Origin: a virus
IMG/VR virus record: IMGVR_UViG_3300025645_000488
Span: 1 to 22,854 of that record
Reading direction: 5' to 3' (one strand)
Length of the DNA: 22,854 nucleotides
Shown here: piece after piece, positions 4,235 through 20,095 of the stretch
Layout: the number at the start of each line of letters is the position of its first letter
Numbering within the stretch: the stretch's first letter is position 1
Translations under genes and position numbers: made by a program
The notes under the pieces: generated by a model
The model's database searches: none
What the model was told of the DNA's origin: nothing
The model's input: the letters and a program-made list of their open reading frames with translations, nothing else

Positions 4235-4416
4235 TAGAATATCTATATGGTGCAGCTACTATGTATGCGTTGGGTGCTATCCTTATGCTTAACGTAACAG
4301 ATCCATCTGATCCTGAGAGACCCAACTCACACATATGGTTCTCACTTGGTTGGCCCGTGGCAGCTATCGTTTCTATATACGAGTTCCTTCGTTATGGATC
4401 AAGAGAGGATGAATAA
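4231..4416 (+). CDS. Small membrane protein with two hydrophobic segments
   Basis: 61 residues from ATG 4231, which overlaps the previous stop (ATGA) with AGGA six bases upstream. An in-frame GTG at 4201 would lengthen it but lacks a good site. Two hydrophobic stretches, about residues 4-22 (YLYGAATMYALGAILML) and 35-53 (HIWFSLGWPVAAIVSIYEF), are separated by a polar DPSDPERPN turn, giving a helical hairpin in the membrane with a charged tail (RYGSREDE). Two-segment holins have this shape, but there is no endolysin beside it and it sits among early genes, so an inner-membrane accessory role is at least as likely. Confidence 0.65.
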   Translation: MIEYLYGAATMYALGAILMLNVTDPSDPERPNSHIWFSLGWPVAAIVSIYEFLRYGSREDE

Positions 4417-4417
4417 C

Positions 4418-5647
4418 ATGACAGAGACAGCATTACTACGCAACCTAATGAACAAAGAGTTCTACGACAACCACAAGGGTATGCGTTGTCCTGATGCGTT
4501 GTTCACTAAGGACATGCGTAAGATCAAGCAGGCTCTGGATCAGGCTATGTCGCTATACGACAAGAGTATCACACCCTCTGAACTAGAGGCACTGTTCTTT
4601 ACAGCTAACCGTACTATGACTACGGCTAACAAGGAGGCATACTCTCACCTGTTCAAACGCATTGAGAGTGAGTCACCTATGCACGAGGAGATTGCTACTG
4701 AAGTACTGTCTCGCTTGTTCCAGCAACACGTGGGTGAGTTAGTAACTAACCTAGGGTTTAACTATGTTAACGGAGAGGAGAACAACCTAGAGAAGCTACG
4801 CAAGCTAGTCGAGGACTACAAGGATGACTTCACACCTAACCTCAACATCCAGTTCGAGGACATTGAGTTGGATACTATCCTTGAAGGTATCCAGATTGAG
4901 ACACAATGGAAGATGAACATCCCTAGCTTACGTGATCGTGTCGAGGGTATCAGTGGTGGTCACTTAGTTATGGTAGGCGCACGTCCTAACACAGGTAAGA
5001 CTACCTTCCATGCGTCCCTCATTGCGGCGCCTAATGGGTTCGCTCATCAGGGTGCTAGGTGTTTGATCCTGACTAACGAGGAGAAGGCAGTGCGTGTAGC
5101 TGCACGGTATGTTCAAGCCTCCTCAGGTATGAACATCAAGCAGATCACTGAGAACAAAGCACTGGCCCTGTCACGCTACACTAAGGTCAAGCAACAGATC
5201 CAACTAAAGGATAGTACAGGCAAGGACATGGCGTGGGTTGAGGCTGTAGTTAAGAGCTATAAGCCTGACATCGTAGTACTAGACATGGGTGACAAGTTCG
5301 CTAGCCGTACCTCTGACAAGTCTGACGTGTACCTAAAGGATGCAGCTATCCATGCACGTAACATTGCTAAGATCTACAACTGTGCTGTGATCTGGATGTC
5401 ACAACTTAGTGCTGATGCCGAGGGTGTAGTGCAACCTAACATGTCTATGATGGAAGGTAGTAAGACAGGCAAGGCAGCTGAGGCAGACTTGATGGTGCTT
5501 ATCTCTAAGAACAGACAGGTTGAGGGTGTTGACGAAGAGGAAGACTTGACACGCTACCTGACTATCGCTAAGAACAAACTCGATGGTGGTTGGCATGGAC
5601 GTATTACTTGTGAACTGGATGGCGACATAGCACAGTACACAGCATAG
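4418..5647 (+). CDS. Replicative DNA helicase, DnaB/RecA-fold
   Basis: Unwinds DNA ahead of the phage polymerase as a ring, driven by NTP hydrolysis. 409 residues from ATG 4418, one base after the preceding stop, with GAGAGGA upstream; in-frame ATGs at 4394 and 4409 are alternatives. The N-terminal 160 residues are helical and not clearly DnaB-N. The motor domain has Walker A GARPNTGKTTF (about 187-197), the catalytic Glu in TNEE (221-222), Walker B IVVLDMGDK (285-293), the sensor WMSQLS (326-331) and the KNKLDGG loop (385-391) typical of DnaB-type enzymes. Primase is a separate gene upstream, unlike T7 gp4. The stop is followed within nine bases by polA. Confidence 0.92.
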   Translation: MTETALLRNLMNKEFYDNHKGMRCPDALFTKDMRKIKQALDQAMSLYDKSITPSELEALFFTANRTMTTANKEAYSHLFKRIESESPMHEEIATEVLSRLFQQHVGELVTNLGFNYVNGEENNLEKLRKLVEDYKDDFTPNLNIQFEDIELDTILEGIQIETQWKMNIPSLRDRVEGISGGHLVMVGARPNTGKTTFHASLIAAPNGFAHQGARCLILTNEEKAVRVAARYVQASSGMNIKQITENKALALSRYTKVKQQIQLKDSTGKDMAWVEAVVKSYKPDIVVLDMGDKFASRTSDKSDVYLKDAAIHARNIAKIYNCAVIWMSQLSADAEGVVQPNMSMMEGSKTGKAAEADLMVLISKNRQVEGVDEEEDLTRYLTIAKNKLDGGWHGRITCELDGDIAQYTA

Positions 5648-5652
5648 GAGAG

Positions 5653-7704
5653 ATGATGAGAACAGTATTAGATGTAGAGAACAACACTACTAAGCGAGAG
5701 GGTAAGACCTTGCTTGACCCTTGGGAGCCAGGTAACTTCTTAGTGCAAGTGGGTACTCTCAATGTAGACAAGATTGACGAAGAGCATATACTTACCTTCG
5801 ATCACAAGGAGAGGAAGGACACAGGTGGTGGTGCTGCGTTTGTACTACAGGCTGTACTGGATGAGACTTCTCTTTTGATTGTACACAATGCACGGCATGA
5901 CTTACCTTGGCTATGGGAGTCAGGCTTTACCTATGACGGTGAGGTGTATGACACTATGATAGGTGAGTACCTACTGCTGCGTGGTACAAAGCGTGGTATA
6001 GGCTTAGGGTATTGCGCTGAGGTGCGTGACCTACCGTCCCGTAAGACTGACGTACTAAAGGAGTACTATAAGAAAGGATACAACACAGATGAGATACCCC
6101 TCGCTGAACTACGAGACTACCTAAAGTGTGACTTAAATGTCACACGTGAGTTGTTCCTTGCACAAGAGGAAGACTACTCTAAGCCTGAGAGTCAGTCGAT
6201 GCTAAAGGTACGAGACATAAGCATGAAGGTTGCAGTTACCCTGTGTAAGATGTACCAGCGTGGCTTCAAGGTGGATCGTGCTGCACTGGATGAGGTACGT
6301 AAAGAGTTTGAGGATGAGAAGGTGCAGCTAGAGACACGCCTTAACATGCACGTGCGTAAGCTTATGGGTGACACGCCTATCAATATCAACTCATCCGAGC
6401 AGATGTCCAACGTGATCTATAGTAAGAAGCCTAAGTCTAAGAAGGAATGGGTAGAGCTATTCGATCACGTCAACAACAAGGATGAGTACAAGTCTACCGT
6501 AGCAGCTAACACAGATCGTATATTCAAGACGCAAGCCTATACGTGTGAGACTTGCGAGGGTACAGGTAAGACGTATCGCATCAAGAAGGATGGCACTAAG
6601 TATGCAAGGCCTAACAAGTGTAAGGACTGTGAAGCTAGAGGGTATCGCTTGAAGCAGCTGAACCAAGTGGCAGGGCTTAACTTCTCTGCGCCCAACAAGG
6701 ATTGGGTCAGTTCTAGTGGGTTCTCTACATCAAAGGGTAACCTGGAGATACTGATTGCTACGGCTAAGAGTAAGGGTATGTATGATGCGATAGAGTTTCT
6801 TACTGATTATCGTAGGCACAATGCTGTGGGTAGCTACCTGTCTAACTTCGTAGAGGGTATTGATTTGTACACTAAGCCTGACGGTAGGCTACACGTTGAC
6901 CTATCCCAGACTACTACAGCAACAGGCCGCTTCTCTGGGCGTAACCCTAACATGCAGAACATGCCACGAGGTAACACCTTCCCAGTTAAGAAAGTGTTTG
7001 TGTCTCGTTGGGAGGGTGGCTACGTTATGGAGGCTGACTTTGCCCAGCTTGAGTTTAGAACTGCTGCGTTCTTAGCACAGGATGAGGTAGCTATGCAGGA
7101 GATTGACGATGGCGTAGACGTACACGCTTACACTGCTCAGGTTATCACTGATGCGGGTGAGCCTACTACCAGGCAGGAAGCAAAGGAACACACGTTTGCA
7201 CCCCTCTTCGGGGCTACAGGTTATGGTAGAAGTACAGCTGTCAAGGCTTACTACGAGCACTTCACTGAGAAGTATAAGGGAGTAGCTAAGTGGCATAAGA
7301 AACTAGGTAAGGAAGCAATTACCCTACTAAAGATTACTAACGTAAGCGGTAGGCAGTATGCATTCCCTGACGTACACCGCAGAGAGAATGGCAGCATAAG
7401 CCACATGACTAGCATCAAGAACTACCCAGTGCAGGGCTTCGCTACAGGTGATGTAGTACCCGTGGTACTGATGGAGTTGGAGGAGAGGCTCAAGCCTTTA
7501 CAGTCGTGCTTGGTTAATACTGTACATGACTCTGCTGTTATAGATATACACCCAAAGGAGAAGGACTATGTGATTGCTATCATACACAGTATGAACGAAG
7601 ACCTAACTCGTATCATAGCTGAGGCCTATGATGTTGAGATGAATGTACCACTATTATTAGAAGCTAAGATCGGGCCGAATTGGCTTGACACAGTGGATGT
7701 ATAG
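5653..7704 (+). CDS. polA: Family A DNA polymerase with DnaJ-type zinc insertion
   Basis: Phage replicative polymerase, 683 residues from ATG 5653; ATG 5656 is better spaced from GGAG and may be the real start. Proofreading exonuclease motifs are intact: Exo I LDVEN (D7, E9), Exo II HNARHDLPWL (D83), Exo III YLKCDLNVT (D160). Polymerase motifs: A, EADFAQLEFR (D462); B, R507-x3-K511-x3-F515 then FGATGYG; C, NTVHDSAVID (D626). Motif C reads HDS instead of the usual HDE, but the metal-binding Asp is present. F515 aligns with Klenow F762. Between exonuclease and polymerase lies an insertion with two CxxCxxxG knuckles (C298/C301 and C323/C326) like half of a DnaJ zinc domain, the trait reported for phage HMO-2011. 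A promoter for the next gene lies in its last codons. Confidence 0.96.
   Translation: MMRTVLDVENNTTKREGKTLLDPWEPGNFLVQVGTLNVDKIDEEHILTFDHKERKDTGGGAAFVLQAVLDETSLLIVHNARHDLPWLWESGFTYDGEVYDTMIGEYLLLRGTKRGIGLGYCAEVRDLPSRKTDVLKEYYKKGYNTDEIPLAELRDYLKCDLNVTRELFLAQEEDYSKPESQSMLKVRDISMKVAVTLCKMYQRGFKVDRAALDEVRKEFEDEKVQLETRLNMHVRKLMGDTPININSSEQMSNVIYSKKPKSKKEWVELFDHVNNKDEYKSTVAANTDRIFKTQAYTCETCEGTGKTYRIKKDGTKYARPNKCKDCEARGYRLKQLNQVAGLNFSAPNKDWVSSSGFSTSKGNLEILIATAKSKGMYDAIEFLTDYRRHNAVGSYLSNFVEGIDLYTKPDGRLHVDLSQTTTATGRFSGRNPNMQNMPRGNTFPVKKVFVSRWEGGYVMEADFAQLEFRTAAFLAQDEVAMQEIDDGVDVHAYTAQVITDAGEPTTRQEAKEHTFAPLFGATGYGRSTAVKAYYEHFTEKYKGVAKWHKKLGKEAITLLKITNVSGRQYAFPDVHRRENGSISHMTSIKNYPVQGFATGDVVPVVLMELEERLKPLQSCLVNTVHDSAVIDIHPKEKDYVIAIIHSMNEDLTRIIAEAYDVEMNVPLLLEAKIGPNWLDTVDV
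6544..6648 (+). other. DnaJ-like zinc-finger module inside polA
   Basis: Codes for CETCEGTGKTY, a basic spacer of about 20 residues, then CKDCEARGY. Two CxxCxGxG-type knuckles are the repeat unit of the DnaJ/Hsp40 cysteine-rich domain; here one pair rather than two is present, enough for one zinc ion. It sits where T7 polymerase has its thumb and thioredoxin-binding region, so a processivity or partner-docking role is a reasonable inference. Confidence 0.8.
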
Positions 7705-7752: not shown

Positions 7753-8634
7753 ATGACTAGCACAGAAGTAACACTAACAACTGACGGACGTTCTATTGCA
7801 GAGATGATGGGTCTCTCAAAAGGTAGTAGCGGTAAGCGATCAATGCTTGCACGGTTCAGTCAGATCCATAGCCCACTCAAGGGTGACATGGAGATCAACG
7901 GCAAGGCTGTTCGAGTAGACGTTGTACCAGCTGGTGCATACAAACTCTTACAGTCGGATGATAAGGTAGCCTATGCAGTCTCACCTAAGATCCGCATCTA
8001 CGCACAGCGTATGCAGTGGACACGTTGGGACTCAAATGAAACCATTATGATTAAGACTGTACTCGTTAACAACCTGACGGGTGACTTGAAGGACAACACT
8101 GGAGGCTTCAATGCGGGGCGTCCGTCTGGTTACGTTGAAGACTTCAAGTCTTTACCTAAGTCTACACAAGAATTGATGCGTAATGTTAAGCGTACCAAGG
8201 TTGTGTTCGGTACTGTAGTAATGCAGGGCGCTACTGATGAGCAGGGTAATGCTATTGAGGATGCATCTATCACAGAGCAAGAGATACCCTTTGTATTGGA
8301 TGTAAAGAGCCGGGGTAGTATCACTGCTATTGATGACATTATGAAGTCTATTGACCGTAAGAACTCTCTACCCCTGCAGTACTTCCTTAACATGGGTGCA
8401 GAGATGCACAGTATGCCTAACGGTAGTGAGTACGCCACGTTTGACATCACCCTGGGCGACAAGGTAGACTTAGTTGAGGCAGACAAGGACATCCTTGATG
8501 GCTTTATGGAGTGGATTAGCGGCATGAACAACTACATTAACGACACTCACAATGAGAAGAGTGGTAGCTCTGGCCTGTCTGCTACTGAGGAGTCCATCAT
8601 CAACGACATCATTGACGTAGAGGTAGCTGAATAA
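7753..8634 (+). CDS. Probable single-stranded DNA-binding protein
   Basis: 293 residues. No catalytic motif is visible. The evidence for the role is its place between polymerase and nuclease genes (where T7 has gp2.5), a beta-rich central part, an aromatic/basic stretch (IYAQRMQWTRWDS) able to stack on bases, and a flexible Ser/Gly linker followed by an acidic C-terminal tail (about residues 270-293, ending IINDIIDVEVAE). Acidic tails are the partner-docking feature of T7 gp2.5 and bacterial SSB, though those usually end in an aromatic residue and this one does not. It has its own near-consensus promoter and leader hairpin, which fits a protein needed in many copies. The stop overlaps the next start (TAATG). 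Confidence 0.55.
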   Translation: MTSTEVTLTTDGRSIAEMMGLSKGSSGKRSMLARFSQIHSPLKGDMEINGKAVRVDVVPAGAYKLLQSDDKVAYAVSPKIRIYAQRMQWTRWDSNETIMIKTVLVNNLTGDLKDNTGGFNAGRPSGYVEDFKSLPKSTQELMRNVKRTKVVFGTVVMQGATDEQGNAIEDASITEQEIPFVLDVKSRGSITAIDDIMKSIDRKNSLPLQYFLNMGAEMHSMPNGSEYATFDITLGDKVDLVEADKDILDGFMEWISGMNNYINDTHNEKSGSSGLSATEESIINDIIDVEVAE

Positions 8635-10570: not shown

Positions 10571-12475
10571 ATGAGTACTAACTACCTACCAACAGACTAT
10601 CAATCATTCATCCACAAGTCTCGCTATGCCAAGTACTTTGATGGTAAAGGCCGTGAGTCCTATGGTGAAACAGTGGCACGTTACATTGACAATGTAGTAC
10701 GCCCTGCCGTTAAGATGGATAACTCTTACATTAAAGACATTGAGCAGGCTATCCTTAACCAAGACATCATGCCATCAATGAGAGCTATGATGACAGCTGG
10801 CCCAGCGCTTGATCGTGACAACACAGCAGGGTACAACTGTAGCTACCTACCCGTAGATGACCCTAAGTCCTTCGATGAGGCTATGTACATTCTCCTCTGT
10901 GGGACGGGGGTTGGCTTCTCCGTTGAGCGCCAGTTCATCAGCAAGCTCCCAGAGGTGCCTGAGTTGTTCCAGAGTGAGTCTATCGTTGTCGTTAAGGACA
11001 GTAAGGAAGGCTGGGCTAAGGGGTTCCGTCAAGTTCTTGCACTCCTCTGGGCTGGTGAGATCCCTAAGTGGGACGTATCACAGGTACGCCCTGCAGGGGC
11101 AAGGCTTAAGACGTTTGGTGGCAGGGCGTCAGGCCCAGCGCCTCTTGTAGAACTATTTAACTTTGCTGTGTCTACCTTCAAGGCTGCACAGGGACGTAAG
11201 CTTAGCTCTATGGAATGCCACGACTTGATGTGCTTCATTGGTCAGATCGTTGTCGTAGGTGGTGTACGCCGCTCAGCTATGATTTCTCTGTCTAACCTGA
11301 GTGATGACCGTATGCGTCACGCTAAGTCAGGGCAGTGGTGGGAGACAGCTGGGCATCGTGCCTTAGCTAACAACTCTGTATCATACACTGAGAAGCCAGA
11401 CATGGAAACATTCATGCGTGAGTGGCTTGCATTGGTTGAGTCCAAGTCTGGTGAGCGTGGTATCTTCAATCGTGAAGCATCCAAGAAGCAAGCAGCTAAG
11501 TTTGGCAGACGTGACCCTAACTATGAGTTTGGTACAAACCCTTGTTCTGAAATAATCTTGCGCCCATATCAGTTTTGTAACTTAACGGAGTGCGTAGTAC
11601 GTGCTACAGATACACTGAAGGATCTTGAGCGTAAGGTTAAGCTGGCTACTATCTTGGGTACTATCCAGTCTACTATGATTAAGTTCCCCTACCTACGTAA
11701 GGTATGGCAGAAGAACACTGCAGAAGAACGGTTGCTTGGTGTGTCTATGACAGGTATTATGGACAACCCATTAATGACATCATCTAACAACGGATTGGAT
11801 AAGACCCTTGAGCATCTACGATCCATTGCTGTGGCTACTAATGCTGAGTGGGCTGAACTTCTTGGCATCCCTGCTAGTGCTAGTATCAGCTGCGTTAAAC
11901 CTTCGGGTACGGTATCACAACTGGTTGATTCCGCTAGTGGTATTCACGCTAGGCACAGCCCCTATTATATTCGTACTGTCCGTGGTGATAACAAAGATCC
12001 TCTGACACAGTTTATGATTGACCAAGGTATCCCTAACGAGCCTTGCGTTATGAAGCCTGACTCTACTGTAGTGTTTAGCTTCCCTGTCAAGTCTCCTGAG
12101 CAGGCTGTAACACGTAATGATATGACTGCTGTAGAGCAGCTTGAGTTGTGGCTCACCTATCAGCGACACTGGTGTGAGCATAAGCCAAGCGTGACTATCT
12201 CAGTTCGTGACAGTGAGTGGATGGCTGTGGGTGCGTTTGTCTATGAGTACTTCGATGAGATGTCAGGTGTGTCATTCTTGCCCCACTCAGATCATACTTA
12301 CCAGCAAGCACCCTATCAGGATTGCACTAAGGAAGAGTACAAAGAGATGCTCTCTAAGATGCCAGCTAAGATTGACTGGGAGCTTCTCAATGAGTACGAG
12401 AGCGAGGACAACACAGTGTCAATGCAGACTATGGCCTGCTCTGGTGACAGCTGTGAGATCGTAGACCTAGTGTAA
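10571..12475 (+). CDS. Adenosylcobalamin-dependent ribonucleotide reductase, class II
   Basis: 634 residues. Reduces ribonucleotides to deoxyribonucleotides with a radical made from coenzyme B12, so it needs no oxygen and no second subunit. Residues seen: redox pair C90 (GYNCSYLP) and C336 (QFCNLTE); the active-site triad N323, C325, E327 in GTNPCSEII, where C325 is the thiyl-radical cysteine; and the C-terminal shuttle pair C623/C628 (CSGDSCE). This layout fits the monomeric triphosphate reductase type, somewhat shorter than the Lactobacillus enzyme. ATG 10571 follows an AAAAAGGGA site. Glutaredoxin follows, a probable reductant. The host must supply cobalamin, which many marine alphaproteobacteria make. 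Confidence 0.95.
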   Translation: MSTNYLPTDYQSFIHKSRYAKYFDGKGRESYGETVARYIDNVVRPAVKMDNSYIKDIEQAILNQDIMPSMRAMMTAGPALDRDNTAGYNCSYLPVDDPKSFDEAMYILLCGTGVGFSVERQFISKLPEVPELFQSESIVVVKDSKEGWAKGFRQVLALLWAGEIPKWDVSQVRPAGARLKTFGGRASGPAPLVELFNFAVSTFKAAQGRKLSSMECHDLMCFIGQIVVVGGVRRSAMISLSNLSDDRMRHAKSGQWWETAGHRALANNSVSYTEKPDMETFMREWLALVESKSGERGIFNREASKKQAAKFGRRDPNYEFGTNPCSEIILRPYQFCNLTECVVRATDTLKDLERKVKLATILGTIQSTMIKFPYLRKVWQKNTAEERLLGVSMTGIMDNPLMTSSNNGLDKTLEHLRSIAVATNAEWAELLGIPASASISCVKPSGTVSQLVDSASGIHARHSPYYIRTVRGDNKDPLTQFMIDQGIPNEPCVMKPDSTVVFSFPVKSPEQAVTRNDMTAVEQLELWLTYQRHWCEHKPSVTISVRDSEWMAVGAFVYEYFDEMSGVSFLPHSDHTYQQAPYQDCTKEEYKEMLSKMPAKIDWELLNEYESEDNTVSMQTMACSGDSCEIVDLV

Positions 12476-12521: not shown

Positions 12522-12758
12522 ATGTATACAATAATAACTCGTGACCAGTGTAACTTCTGTGATGACGCTAAGTCTCTCTTACGAGGGCGAGGCTTCCCAT
12601 ACGCAGAGTACAACATACAATCAGCTAGCTCTAAGTGGGTGTTGACATTGCTTAAACGATCTAGTATTACTACAGTACCTCAAGTGTTCAATCCAAAGGG
12701 AGAGTTGATTGGGGGTTACATAGAACTAAAGGTACTACTACAGGGGGATGAACGCTAA
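12522..12758 (+). CDS. Glutaredoxin
   Basis: 78 residues, a complete minimal glutaredoxin. Active-site CNFC (C10, C13), the cis-proline loop TVPQVF (P53), and the GGY turn (64-66) that binds glutathione are all present. It follows the ribonucleotide reductase by 46 bases and most likely re-reduces the reductase C-terminal cysteines, although class II enzymes usually use thioredoxin. Its TAA overlaps the next ATG (TAATG). TAGGAG sits six bases upstream, partly inside a stem-loop. Confidence 0.92.
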   Translation: MYTIITRDQCNFCDDAKSLLRGRGFPYAEYNIQSASSKWVLTLLKRSSITTVPQVFNPKGELIGGYIELKVLLQGDER

Positions 12759-13159
12759 TGCAGTTAGACTTCTTTAAGGATGAACCTCCTGAATCTAATA
12801 GAGACCCTACTATGCGTATGTGTAAGAAGTGTAACCAAGAGAAATCACTTGATGACTTTAATGCTATATACTATAGAAAGAATGGTGACCCTACTAAGGG
12901 CTATCGCTGTGCTGACTGTCAACAAGAACACTCTCGTACTGTAGCTATACTAAAGAAGCTACACCCAAAGCCCAATGATAATGTGTGTGAGTGTTGTGGT
13001 GATGTAGCTGAGAAGATGTGCTTAGACCATAGCCATGTTACTGGTGCGTTCAGAGGGTGGGTATGTGAGGGGTGCAATCATAGTATGGGTAAGTCAGATG
13101 ACAACCCTGATAAGTTAATCAAACAAGCGGAGTATTTACGTGCAAGAAGAACTAATTAA
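12758..13159 (+). CDS. Endonuclease VII-like HNH nuclease
   Basis: 133 residues. N-terminal zinc ribbon with C22/C25 and C51/C54, then the recombination endonuclease VII core: CECCG (C77, C80), LDHSHVTG (D90, H91, H93), FRGWVCEGCNHSMG (C103, C106, N107) and DNPDKL. This is the beta-beta-alpha-metal fold of T4 endonuclease VII, which resolves branched DNA; many phage relatives are instead free-standing homing nucleases. As the phage already has an endonuclease I-like resolvase, the homing role may be likelier. Composition is slightly more AT-rich than the neighbours. The end overlaps the PhoH-like gene by 20 bases. Confidence 0.87.
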   Translation: MQLDFFKDEPPESNRDPTMRMCKKCNQEKSLDDFNAIYYRKNGDPTKGYRCADCQQEHSRTVAILKKLHPKPNDNVCECCGDVAEKMCLDHSHVTGAFRGWVCEGCNHSMGKSDDNPDKLIKQAEYLRARRTN

Positions 13160-17746: not shown

Positions 17747-20095
17747 TTACAGACCCATTTCTTTTTGTACTATAACGCTGCCATATTTCTTGACTAGCAT
17801 ATCCAACAAACTTGAGTCACCACTTAGCTCATTAGCTTTCTGTGCTCTCTTAAGTCTAGCCTTATCACTTGCTGTCATACCTTTAGGCTTAAGGGGTTTC
17901 TTAGGTCTGGTCACTAAAGGCTCAGGCTCTACAGTTTTCTCTACCTCAGCTTCTTTACGCAGGTCAGAGATCTTATCCTTAAGAGCTTGTAAAGCTACAA
18001 CCCTATTTCTCTGTCCTTCATTCTTCATAATACGCTCCTCTAAGGTCTCCTCAAAGAGGGCTGCTATAGAGGCATTTATTTTATCTTGAGTGTCAAACAG
18101 AGACTGGTGAATTCTCTCAGGTAGCTCAGTCAAGAAACGTAATGATTTTGAGATAGACTCTGTTGTGGCGTTCTCTAAGTTATCGGGTACATCTCCAGGG
18201 AACTCGGGTTTAAACTCTTCGCCTGATAGCTTCGCCCTAGCCGCTGCAATTATTTCAGCGTTAGTCAATGCTACTCCGTTTACCCCCCCTAGTCTTTGTG
18301 ACTCTTCACCTATTCCTACCATCTCCATAAGTGAAACAATGGGATTTTCTGGACCCGTAAACCAGTCCAAGAAACCAGCTTTAACCTCCTCCTCAACTTC
18401 ATCAGGCACTACCTCATCAGTGTTGAGTTGCATGTATTCCTTCCAACCCATAGCGGCAATGTCTGCTGCTCTCTCAGAGTAGAGGTCTGCGTTCTCTTGT
18501 AGTTGACGGGACCATGCTTCAGAGGAATCCCCTTTAGAAGATCCAAACAGACCCCTACTAAAGTCTATAACTGAAGACATAGCATTTGATAGACCAGATT
18601 TAGCTACGTCCATATAGGTATAGCCTTTAGTATTTACGTAGTCACTAGTCCTGCTTAAGAAGTCAGTTACTTTCTCTCCTCTTATTACGGCATCGGACAA
18701 CTCATCAGCGTCTGCAGGCAGTAGGTATGAGCTATCCTTCCAGCTATCGTCAGATGGAATTGTGTCCATGCCCACTAGGCCTTGGTCAACAGCAGGAGTC
18801 ATCAGTGGGGAAATCCACTTCTGGAACCTAGCTTCCATAGCACTGCGGTCAGGTACTGTATTAACTGAGGTATCTGTTTCACTTGAAACTGCTTCTACTT
18901 TGGGTGCTTTATAGGTATCAATAAAGCCCTGCTTGACTTCTACTGTAGTACCATCAACTACAATAGTATCACCTACTTTTATATCACCCTTATTTACAGC
19001 AGCTTGTATTTGATCCTGAGTATAGGTAGCTGCCTTCTTTGGTACTGGAGGTTCACCCGCTGGAGTTTCACCTGCTGGAGTTTCACCTGCTGGAGTTTCA
19101 CCTGCTGGAGTTTCACCTGCTGGAGGTTGACCACTTTCTGCTGTCGTAGGGATATCTTCGCCTGCTGTTAGTGCGCTGTAGGTAGTCCTGAAATAGTCAC
19201 CCAACAAGAAGTTATTGCTTACTGAACCCAATCTATTAGCTTCTATACCTTGTAAGTAGGTAAGGAAAGCACCACCTTCATACTCAGGGTTACTGATATA
19301 CCTAGCCATAGCTTCGCCTTCGTTAGTCTTTGCTATTGTTACTAGTTCTTTAAGTTTATCATGTTTTGCTGTTAAGGTCTGCCGTGCCTCAGCACTAAGG
19401 CTCGTAGAAGCCAAAGCTGTTGAAAGCTCATCCATCTGGCGGCTAATACTAGCGTTAAATTGTTCTCCTACAGTCGCCCTTACAATATTTAATTCACTAG
19501 GGCTAATAGGCTTAGGTGGTAGCTTAATTCCCAGCGGCTTACCTGCCTTAGGTCCAGAGCTAGCCGCAATACGAATTAAGTCTTGTCCACTATACCCACC
19601 GTAATAGTCAGCGTTAATAACTTCGTCTTCCAGAGCACGAGCATCTAAGCCTAGCATAGCACCCAACATACCAGTCTTACGTTTCACTGGGTCTGACTCA
19701 GACTTGTAAAGACCATACGCACGATTAATAACAGTCTCTAAGTCTTCCTCTGGGTTACTATTTACAAAGTCTACGGCAGATGTTTCAAGCTCTTTGATGT
19801 CGGCTGGTGTTAAGTCAGTACGCTTAAGTACCTGCTCTGCAAAGTCATACATACCACGAACACCACTCTTAGTTGTGATACCCGTTACAAACTCCTTAGA
19901 AAAACCAAAGTTCTGAAGCCTATTAGCAACTGAAAGTGCATCGTTTGCTTTACTTTCAATGTCTACTACAGCCTTTGTACCGTAGGTCTGCAAGTAGTCC
20001 TTACGTTTCTCAGCTTTCGCTCTGTAGTACTCACGGTCTTTTTCTATTAGTTCCGACAAGGTAGTGCCGAAGCCTGCCATAAATCCTGCTGCCAT
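17747..20095 (-). CDS. Internal virion protein, T7 gp15-like in place and size, with repeat linker
   Basis: 782 residues (T7 gp15 is 747). The N-terminal 320 residues are helical and start MAAGFMAGFGTTLSELIEKD, a Gly/Ala opening followed by a charged helix. Residues about 322-351 are a Pro-Ala-Gly-Glu-Thr repeat, then a short beta-type unit (GDIKVGDTIVVDGTTVEVK, about 372-390), then an acidic helical half ending in a Lys/Pro-rich linker (RPKKPLKPKGM) and a short terminal helix. No enzymatic motif is visible. Lies between the 187-residue and the 1197-residue genes, with four bases before and none after. An ejection-apparatus role is inferred from gene order only. Confidence 0.65.
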   Translation of the reverse strand: MAAGFMAGFGTTLSELIEKDREYYRAKAEKRKDYLQTYGTKAVVDIESKANDALSVANRLQNFGFSKEFVTGITTKSGVRGMYDFAEQVLKRTDLTPADIKELETSAVDFVNSNPEEDLETVINRAYGLYKSESDPVKRKTGMLGAMLGLDARALEDEVINADYYGGYSGQDLIRIAASSGPKAGKPLGIKLPPKPISPSELNIVRATVGEQFNASISRQMDELSTALASTSLSAEARQTLTAKHDKLKELVTIAKTNEGEAMARYISNPEYEGGAFLTYLQGIEANRLGSVSNNFLLGDYFRTTYSALTAGEDIPTTAESGQPPAGETPAGETPAGETPAGETPAGEPPVPKKAATYTQDQIQAAVNKGDIKVGDTIVVDGTTVEVKQGFIDTYKAPKVEAVSSETDTSVNTVPDRSAMEARFQKWISPLMTPAVDQGLVGMDTIPSDDSWKDSSYLLPADADELSDAVIRGEKVTDFLSRTSDYVNTKGYTYMDVAKSGLSNAMSSVIDFSRGLFGSSKGDSSEAWSRQLQENADLYSERAADIAAMGWKEYMQLNTDEVVPDEVEEEVKAGFLDWFTGPENPIVSLMEMVGIGEESQRLGGVNGVALTNAEIIAAARAKLSGEEFKPEFPGDVPDNLENATTESISKSLRFLTELPERIHQSLFDTQDKINASIAALFEETLEERIMKNEGQRNRVVALQALKDKISDLRKEAEVEKTVEPEPLVTRPKKPLKPKGMTASDKARLKRAQKANELSGDSSLLDMLVKKYGSVIVQKEMGL
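19045..19131 (-). repeat. 15-base tandem repeat coding for Pro-Ala-Gly-Glu-Thr
   Basis: Unit CTGGAGTTTCACCTG on the plus strand. Four identical copies (19060-19119), one diverged copy before (19045-19059, two changes) and a partial diverged copy after. On the coding strand it gives five or so PAGET units inside the 782-residue virion protein. Identical units suggest recent expansion by slippage; copy-number change in whole units keeps the reading frame. Confidence 0.95.

Follow-up and report, generated by a model that had tools for sequence, protein, structure and literature searches.

A DnaJ-like motif pair in a phage DNA polymerase

What might a pair of DnaJ-type zinc knuckles do inside a replicative DNA polymerase? 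The question is posed by a family A polymerase of 683 amino acids, combining 3'-5' exonuclease and polymerase domains, that is encoded at 5653..7704 (+) in a 22.9-kb IMG/VR record. The whole record of 22,854 nucleotides is referred to here as the window. The protein matches the family A polymerase domain above its cut-off (PF00476, E 1.2e-49, 169.7 bits). The exonuclease domain (PF01612, E 0.0043) scores below the cut-off in the window protein and is matched by 59 of the 60 aligned members. The polymerase shares 65% identity with its closest isolates, CRP-603 and CRP-2, and 56% with HMO-2011 (55–65% overall), and it clusters with HMO-2011-type isolates in a tree from which the insert was largely cut out. 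When the insert region served as query against a phage collection, the matches were HMO-2011-type phages only (12 records), and PF00684 is annotated in the polymerase of the HMO-2011 record. The window is an HMO-2011-type phage, a member of a group described as dominant and widespread in the ocean (PMC9038755).

HMO-2011-type polymerases are reported to carry a partial DnaJ central domain with two CXXCXGXG motifs at the exonuclease/polymerase boundary (PMC9038755, PMC6918029), and one of these two papers uses the domain to define the group. The motif pair is therefore an already published diagnostic trait, as the initial annotation of this locus had noted, and our literature search found no functional test of it in HMO-2011-type phages. 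Its exact position in the thumb and its assignment to one half of the DnaJ domain are the new elements here, neither being found in the available parts of the HMO-2011-type descriptions. Polymerases of HMO-2011, CRP-1/2/3, HTVC033P and others are the same protein with the same partial DnaJ domain and a similar gene neighbourhood. The window protein shows no difference in kind from them, except that its second motif is degenerate (CxxCxARG): CKDCEARG, compared with CPACHGDG in HMO-2011. Further HMO-2011-type polymerases (43–73% identity) occur at loci L279–L287 on contigs filed as bacterial or archaeal metagenome or single-cell genomes; these are probably misbinned phage contigs or prophages.

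Positions 6544–6648 (+) translate to CETCEGTGKTYRIKKDGTKYARPNKCKDCEARGYR, polymerase residues 298–332. Zinc knuckle 1, CETCEGTG, covers residues 298–305 (6544..6567, +), and zinc knuckle 2, CKDCEARG, covers residues 323–330 (6619..6642, +). Among 59 relatives, all below 90% identity, C298, C301, C323 and C326 are 100% conserved, while the other four cysteines of the polymerase reach 36–61%. G303 and G330 are likewise invariant, and G305 is kept in 98%. Both CxxC pairs occur in 247 of the 249 relatives examined; the remaining two are 5'-truncated contigs that start inside the gene. A CxxCxGxG...CxxC pair arose in one of 20,000 shuffles of the polymerase protein. The pair of motifs named in the initial annotation is thus real. 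The 21 residues separating the CxxC pairs include seven K/R and two D/E, and one subgroup of relatives has about 12 additional, largely basic residues between the knuckles.

By profile comparison, the insert resembles one half of the DnaJ cysteine-rich domain, repeats 2 and 3, with a single putative zinc site. A 13-sequence profile of the insert matched the E. coli DnaJ cysteine-rich domain structure 1exk over these two repeats (E 3.1e-5), and PF00684 was matched by all 13 profile members (best E 2.1e-8). The window insert alone scored 24.4 bits (E 3.6e-5) and the whole protein 20 bits, below the curated PF00684 cut-off of 32.7. The distance between the repeats is 22 residues in E. coli DnaJ (C161 to C183) and 25 in the window (C298 to C323). 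DnaJ proper has four CxxCxGxG repeats forming two zinc sites, whereas the window has two repeats, placed inside a polymerase, and no HPD motif of the J domain occurs in the 683 residues. The module is thus DnaJ-like rather than a DnaJ domain proper. Its four invariant cysteines, together with the DnaJ-like motif, point indirectly to bound zinc and would form one zinc site.

Descent from DnaJ could imply a chaperone link, with the remnant recruiting host DnaK or holding unfolded protein. The match to DnaJ repeats 2 and 3 is in keeping with this, and a role of DnaJ in lambda replication has been raised as a precedent (PMC9038755). However, without an HPD motif the polymerase has no J domain, only half of the cysteine-rich domain is present, and the module is fixed at the thumb in every aligned relative, all of which makes a chaperone function highly improbable.

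Predicted position in the thumb

An AlphaFold model of the polymerase, built on a 60-sequence alignment, has a mean pLDDT of 92.5, with values of about 86–93 across the insert. In structural comparison with the PDB, the model as a whole is closest to Bacillus Pol I fragments, including Bst pol I (4dqp; Z 36.5, rmsd 2.8, 536 residues). A Foldseek viral search and a VIA-align comparison were dominated by the polymerase core and are uninformative on the insert alone.

According to alignments and model, a beta-hairpin at the thumb tip, between the short helices H1 and H2, carries the knuckles. The predicted order is a helix at 209–238, H1 at 248–256, helices at 263–272 and 276–286, a strand at 291–297, the knuckles, a strand at 331–339 and H2 at 361–373. 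H1 (6394..6420, +), with the motif NINSSEQMSNVIY, forms the left border of the insertion and aligns with FNLSSTKQLQTILF of E. coli Pol I (from residue 578). H2 (6733..6771, +), within GFSTSKGNLEIL, forms the right border and aligns with APSTSEEVLEEL (from residue 606). The whole H1–H2 insertion covers residues ~259–356 (~98 residues; 6427..6720, +), where E. coli Pol I has a stretch of about 12. At the base of the insertion lie the two extra helices (6439..6510, +; pLDDT ~88–94); hairpin strand 1 (6523..6543, +) leads into the knuckles, and strand 2 (6643..6669, +) leads out of them into a conserved AGL turn at residues 340–342. The initial annotation had placed the motifs between the exonuclease and polymerase domains; more precisely, alignments and model put them within the thumb, between two short tip helices.

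Among invariant hairpin positions, cysteines, glycines and small packing residues (A295, A340, G341) predominate, and many exposed positions vary. This pattern would suit a purely structural role, in which zinc steadies a long thumb insertion, helices 263–286 and the loop before H2 are the parts that matter, and the hairpin has no partner. Yet K311, K322 and R309 are conserved in 90%, 83% and 75% of the 59 relatives, and the insert is basic in every relative counted, with a net charge of +2 to +12 (+6 in the window, where the whole polymerase has a net charge of −9). These features suggest a charged surface that is used, and a role confined to structure seems improbable.

Insertions in related polymerases

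In a phylogeny of polymerases with and without the insert, a check that the initial annotation had proposed, the zinc-bearing rows fall together on one side of a branch with support 84/85, so that one change is needed; most of the insert had been removed from the alignment. The nearest non-zinc row, StenR_269, sits on a long branch and has a short H1–H2 loop, as does its relative L359, and a search for StenR_269 relatives returned one contig. The short loop in these closest non-zinc relatives indicates that this type of polymerase can do without the module. In StenR_269 (L086:1-266), the gene two places upstream of the polymerase gene is annotated as encoding a thioredoxin domain protein.

Basic, cysteine-free inserts at the same H1–H2 place are found in more distant phage polymerases: Paku, ERS, KBC54, AltH44, K437b, ROV85, Aristophanes, MEP402, ICP2 and VP41s3 (loci L088, L094, L353, L354, L356, L357, L358, L085, L087 and L355). 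Many of these have a YKxGKNxGEPKTK-like motif. The likeness to the window insert is one of position and does not by itself imply homology of the inserted parts; an enlarged H1–H2 element thus recurs. In MEP402, ICP2 and VP41s3 (L085, L087, L355) the polymerase is split into two genes, with a small ORF between them in MEP402 and VP41s3. Plant organellar DNA polymerases offer a further comparison, made here by description rather than alignment: their thumb insertions 1 and 2 are family A thumb additions modelled near DNA, insertion 1 is lysine-rich, and the available part of the source describes no zinc motif in them (PMC7699545).

Relation to the T7 thioredoxin site

The initial annotation had put the motif pair near the place where T7 polymerase binds thioredoxin. 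The T7 thioredoxin-binding domain, which has many basic residues, is likewise inserted in the thumb of a family A polymerase from a phage and is thought to work as a clamp (PMC5984650, PMC9198812), raising processivity once thioredoxin binds (PMC5984650). It sits after thumb helix H and ahead of the NPSS helix (T7 residue 335), whereas the window insertion comes after the equivalent NINSS helix and before the STSK helix. In the window polymerase, the loop equivalent to the T7 site is about nine residues long and lies between helices 209–238 and 248–256. With that loop nearly empty and the insertion one helix later, the module is not a remade version of the thioredoxin site. As judged from alignments and model, the two insertions are near in fold and occupy different sites, so the earlier placement holds for the thumb as a region and not for the site itself. 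The T7 domain also differs in having no cysteine-pair motif and in needing thioredoxin; homology between the two is rejected on insertion site.

A thioredoxin replacement had further been argued from the lack of a thioredoxin gene in this DNA. The lack agrees with seven complete HMO-2011-type genomes, in which the search found no thioredoxin gene, although the window is a record of just 22.9 kb and does encode a glutaredoxin. T7 polymerase borrows host thioredoxin, and the search used for the HMO-2011-type genomes returned the identical zero matches for T7. Since T7 itself encodes no thioredoxin, a missing phage thioredoxin is no argument for replacement, and that line of reasoning fails. Binding of host thioredoxin to the insert, as in T7 polymerase, would fit a thumb insertion in a phage whose complete relatives, like T7, have no thioredoxin gene. 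The different insertion site, the short loop at the T7 position and alignments in which no likeness to the T7 domain sequence is evident leave this reading scarcely credible.

The glutaredoxin gene (12522–12758) raises a separate idea, in which the phage glutaredoxin oxidises or reduces the CxxC pairs and so turns the polymerase on or off. Weak thiol-reductase activity has been reported for DnaJ (PMC4428491), which would be compatible with such a redox switch. Against it, the glutaredoxin gene directly follows an adenosylcobalamin-type ribonucleotide reductase gene (10571–12475), its usual partner, and five of the seven HMO-2011-type genomes searched have no glutaredoxin while keeping the cysteines. 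A redox switch is thus very hard to sustain.

A putative basic zinc finger as a possible DNA grip

In T7 polymerase, thumb H1/H2 peptides 346–355 and 360–373 crosslink to nucleic acid (PMC9198812). The module is spliced in at the corresponding place, a part of the thumb that contacts DNA in T7 polymerase. Together with the basic charge of the insert and the clamp precedent of the T7 domain, this favours a finger that grips DNA. The two CxxC pairs would form one zinc site that pins the beta-hairpin at the thumb tip, and bound zinc would stiffen the hairpin into a positively charged finger. Behind the active site, along the upstream duplex, such a finger could extend the hold of the thumb on the primer-template, and the longer grip may raise processivity with no added factor. 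This reading builds on what was observed, namely where the insert lies, how well it is conserved, its DnaJ-like motif, a fold modelled with high confidence and a tree needing one gain, and puts zinc binding, DNA contact and a processivity effect on top of them; we assign it a probability of about 0.5. With the module located in H1–H2 and not at the T7 site, what had been a domain name becomes a testable proposal on how these polymerases hold DNA. Three points weaken the grip model: the usual partners of DnaJ-type knuckles are proteins, StenR_269 and L359 have only a short loop in its place, and many positively charged insert positions are only moderately conserved in the 59 relatives.

The main rival is docking within the replisome, in which the basic zinc module binds a protein, most likely the acidic C-terminal tail of the product of the gene at 7753..8634 (+). 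The placement of the module directs attention to this conserved downstream neighbour, a member of the HMO-2011 gp13 family with 194 homologues, as a possible partner. Its tail has a net charge of −4 or lower in 96% of the 194 homologues, compared with 11% of other ORFs. The other neighbour, a DnaB-like replicative helicase (4412..5647, +; PF03796, E 1.7e-15; longest ORF version from a TTG start at 4346), does not have an acidic tail, and helicase tails, where checked, carry a near-neutral or basic charge. The insert also gives a weak profile match to the DnaJ-like anti-TRAP protein, and anti-TRAP is a protein-binding domain. T7 provides a precedent, as the C-terminal tail of its single-strand binding protein gp2.5 is reported to interact with the thioredoxin-binding domain (PMC7699545).

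Docking is set back by the character of the proposed partner. The downstream protein matches no named entry in Pfam, PHROG, NCBIfam or the PDB, and a comparison with T7 gp2.5 found nothing, a weak negative since it used one gp2.5 sequence. Its identification as a known single-strand binding protein is rejected on these grounds, and it is best called a candidate replication protein. The charge of the tail does not correlate with that of the insert (rho −0.08, p 0.28), so a charge coupling between the two is rejected as well. Docking to this tail is therefore possible but on the whole doubtful. A combination with the grip model is slightly more doubtful still: a zinc-pinned thumb-tip finger, gained once, would clamp upstream DNA and also dock the acidic tail of the downstream protein, with neither thioredoxin nor a sliding clamp. 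If true, it would be a new route to processivity for a replicative family A polymerase.

Elsewhere in the window, a 782-amino-acid ORF at 17747–20095 (−) contains a tandem PAGET repeat, and two separate endonuclease VII/HNH-like genes lie at 892–1461 and 12758–13159.
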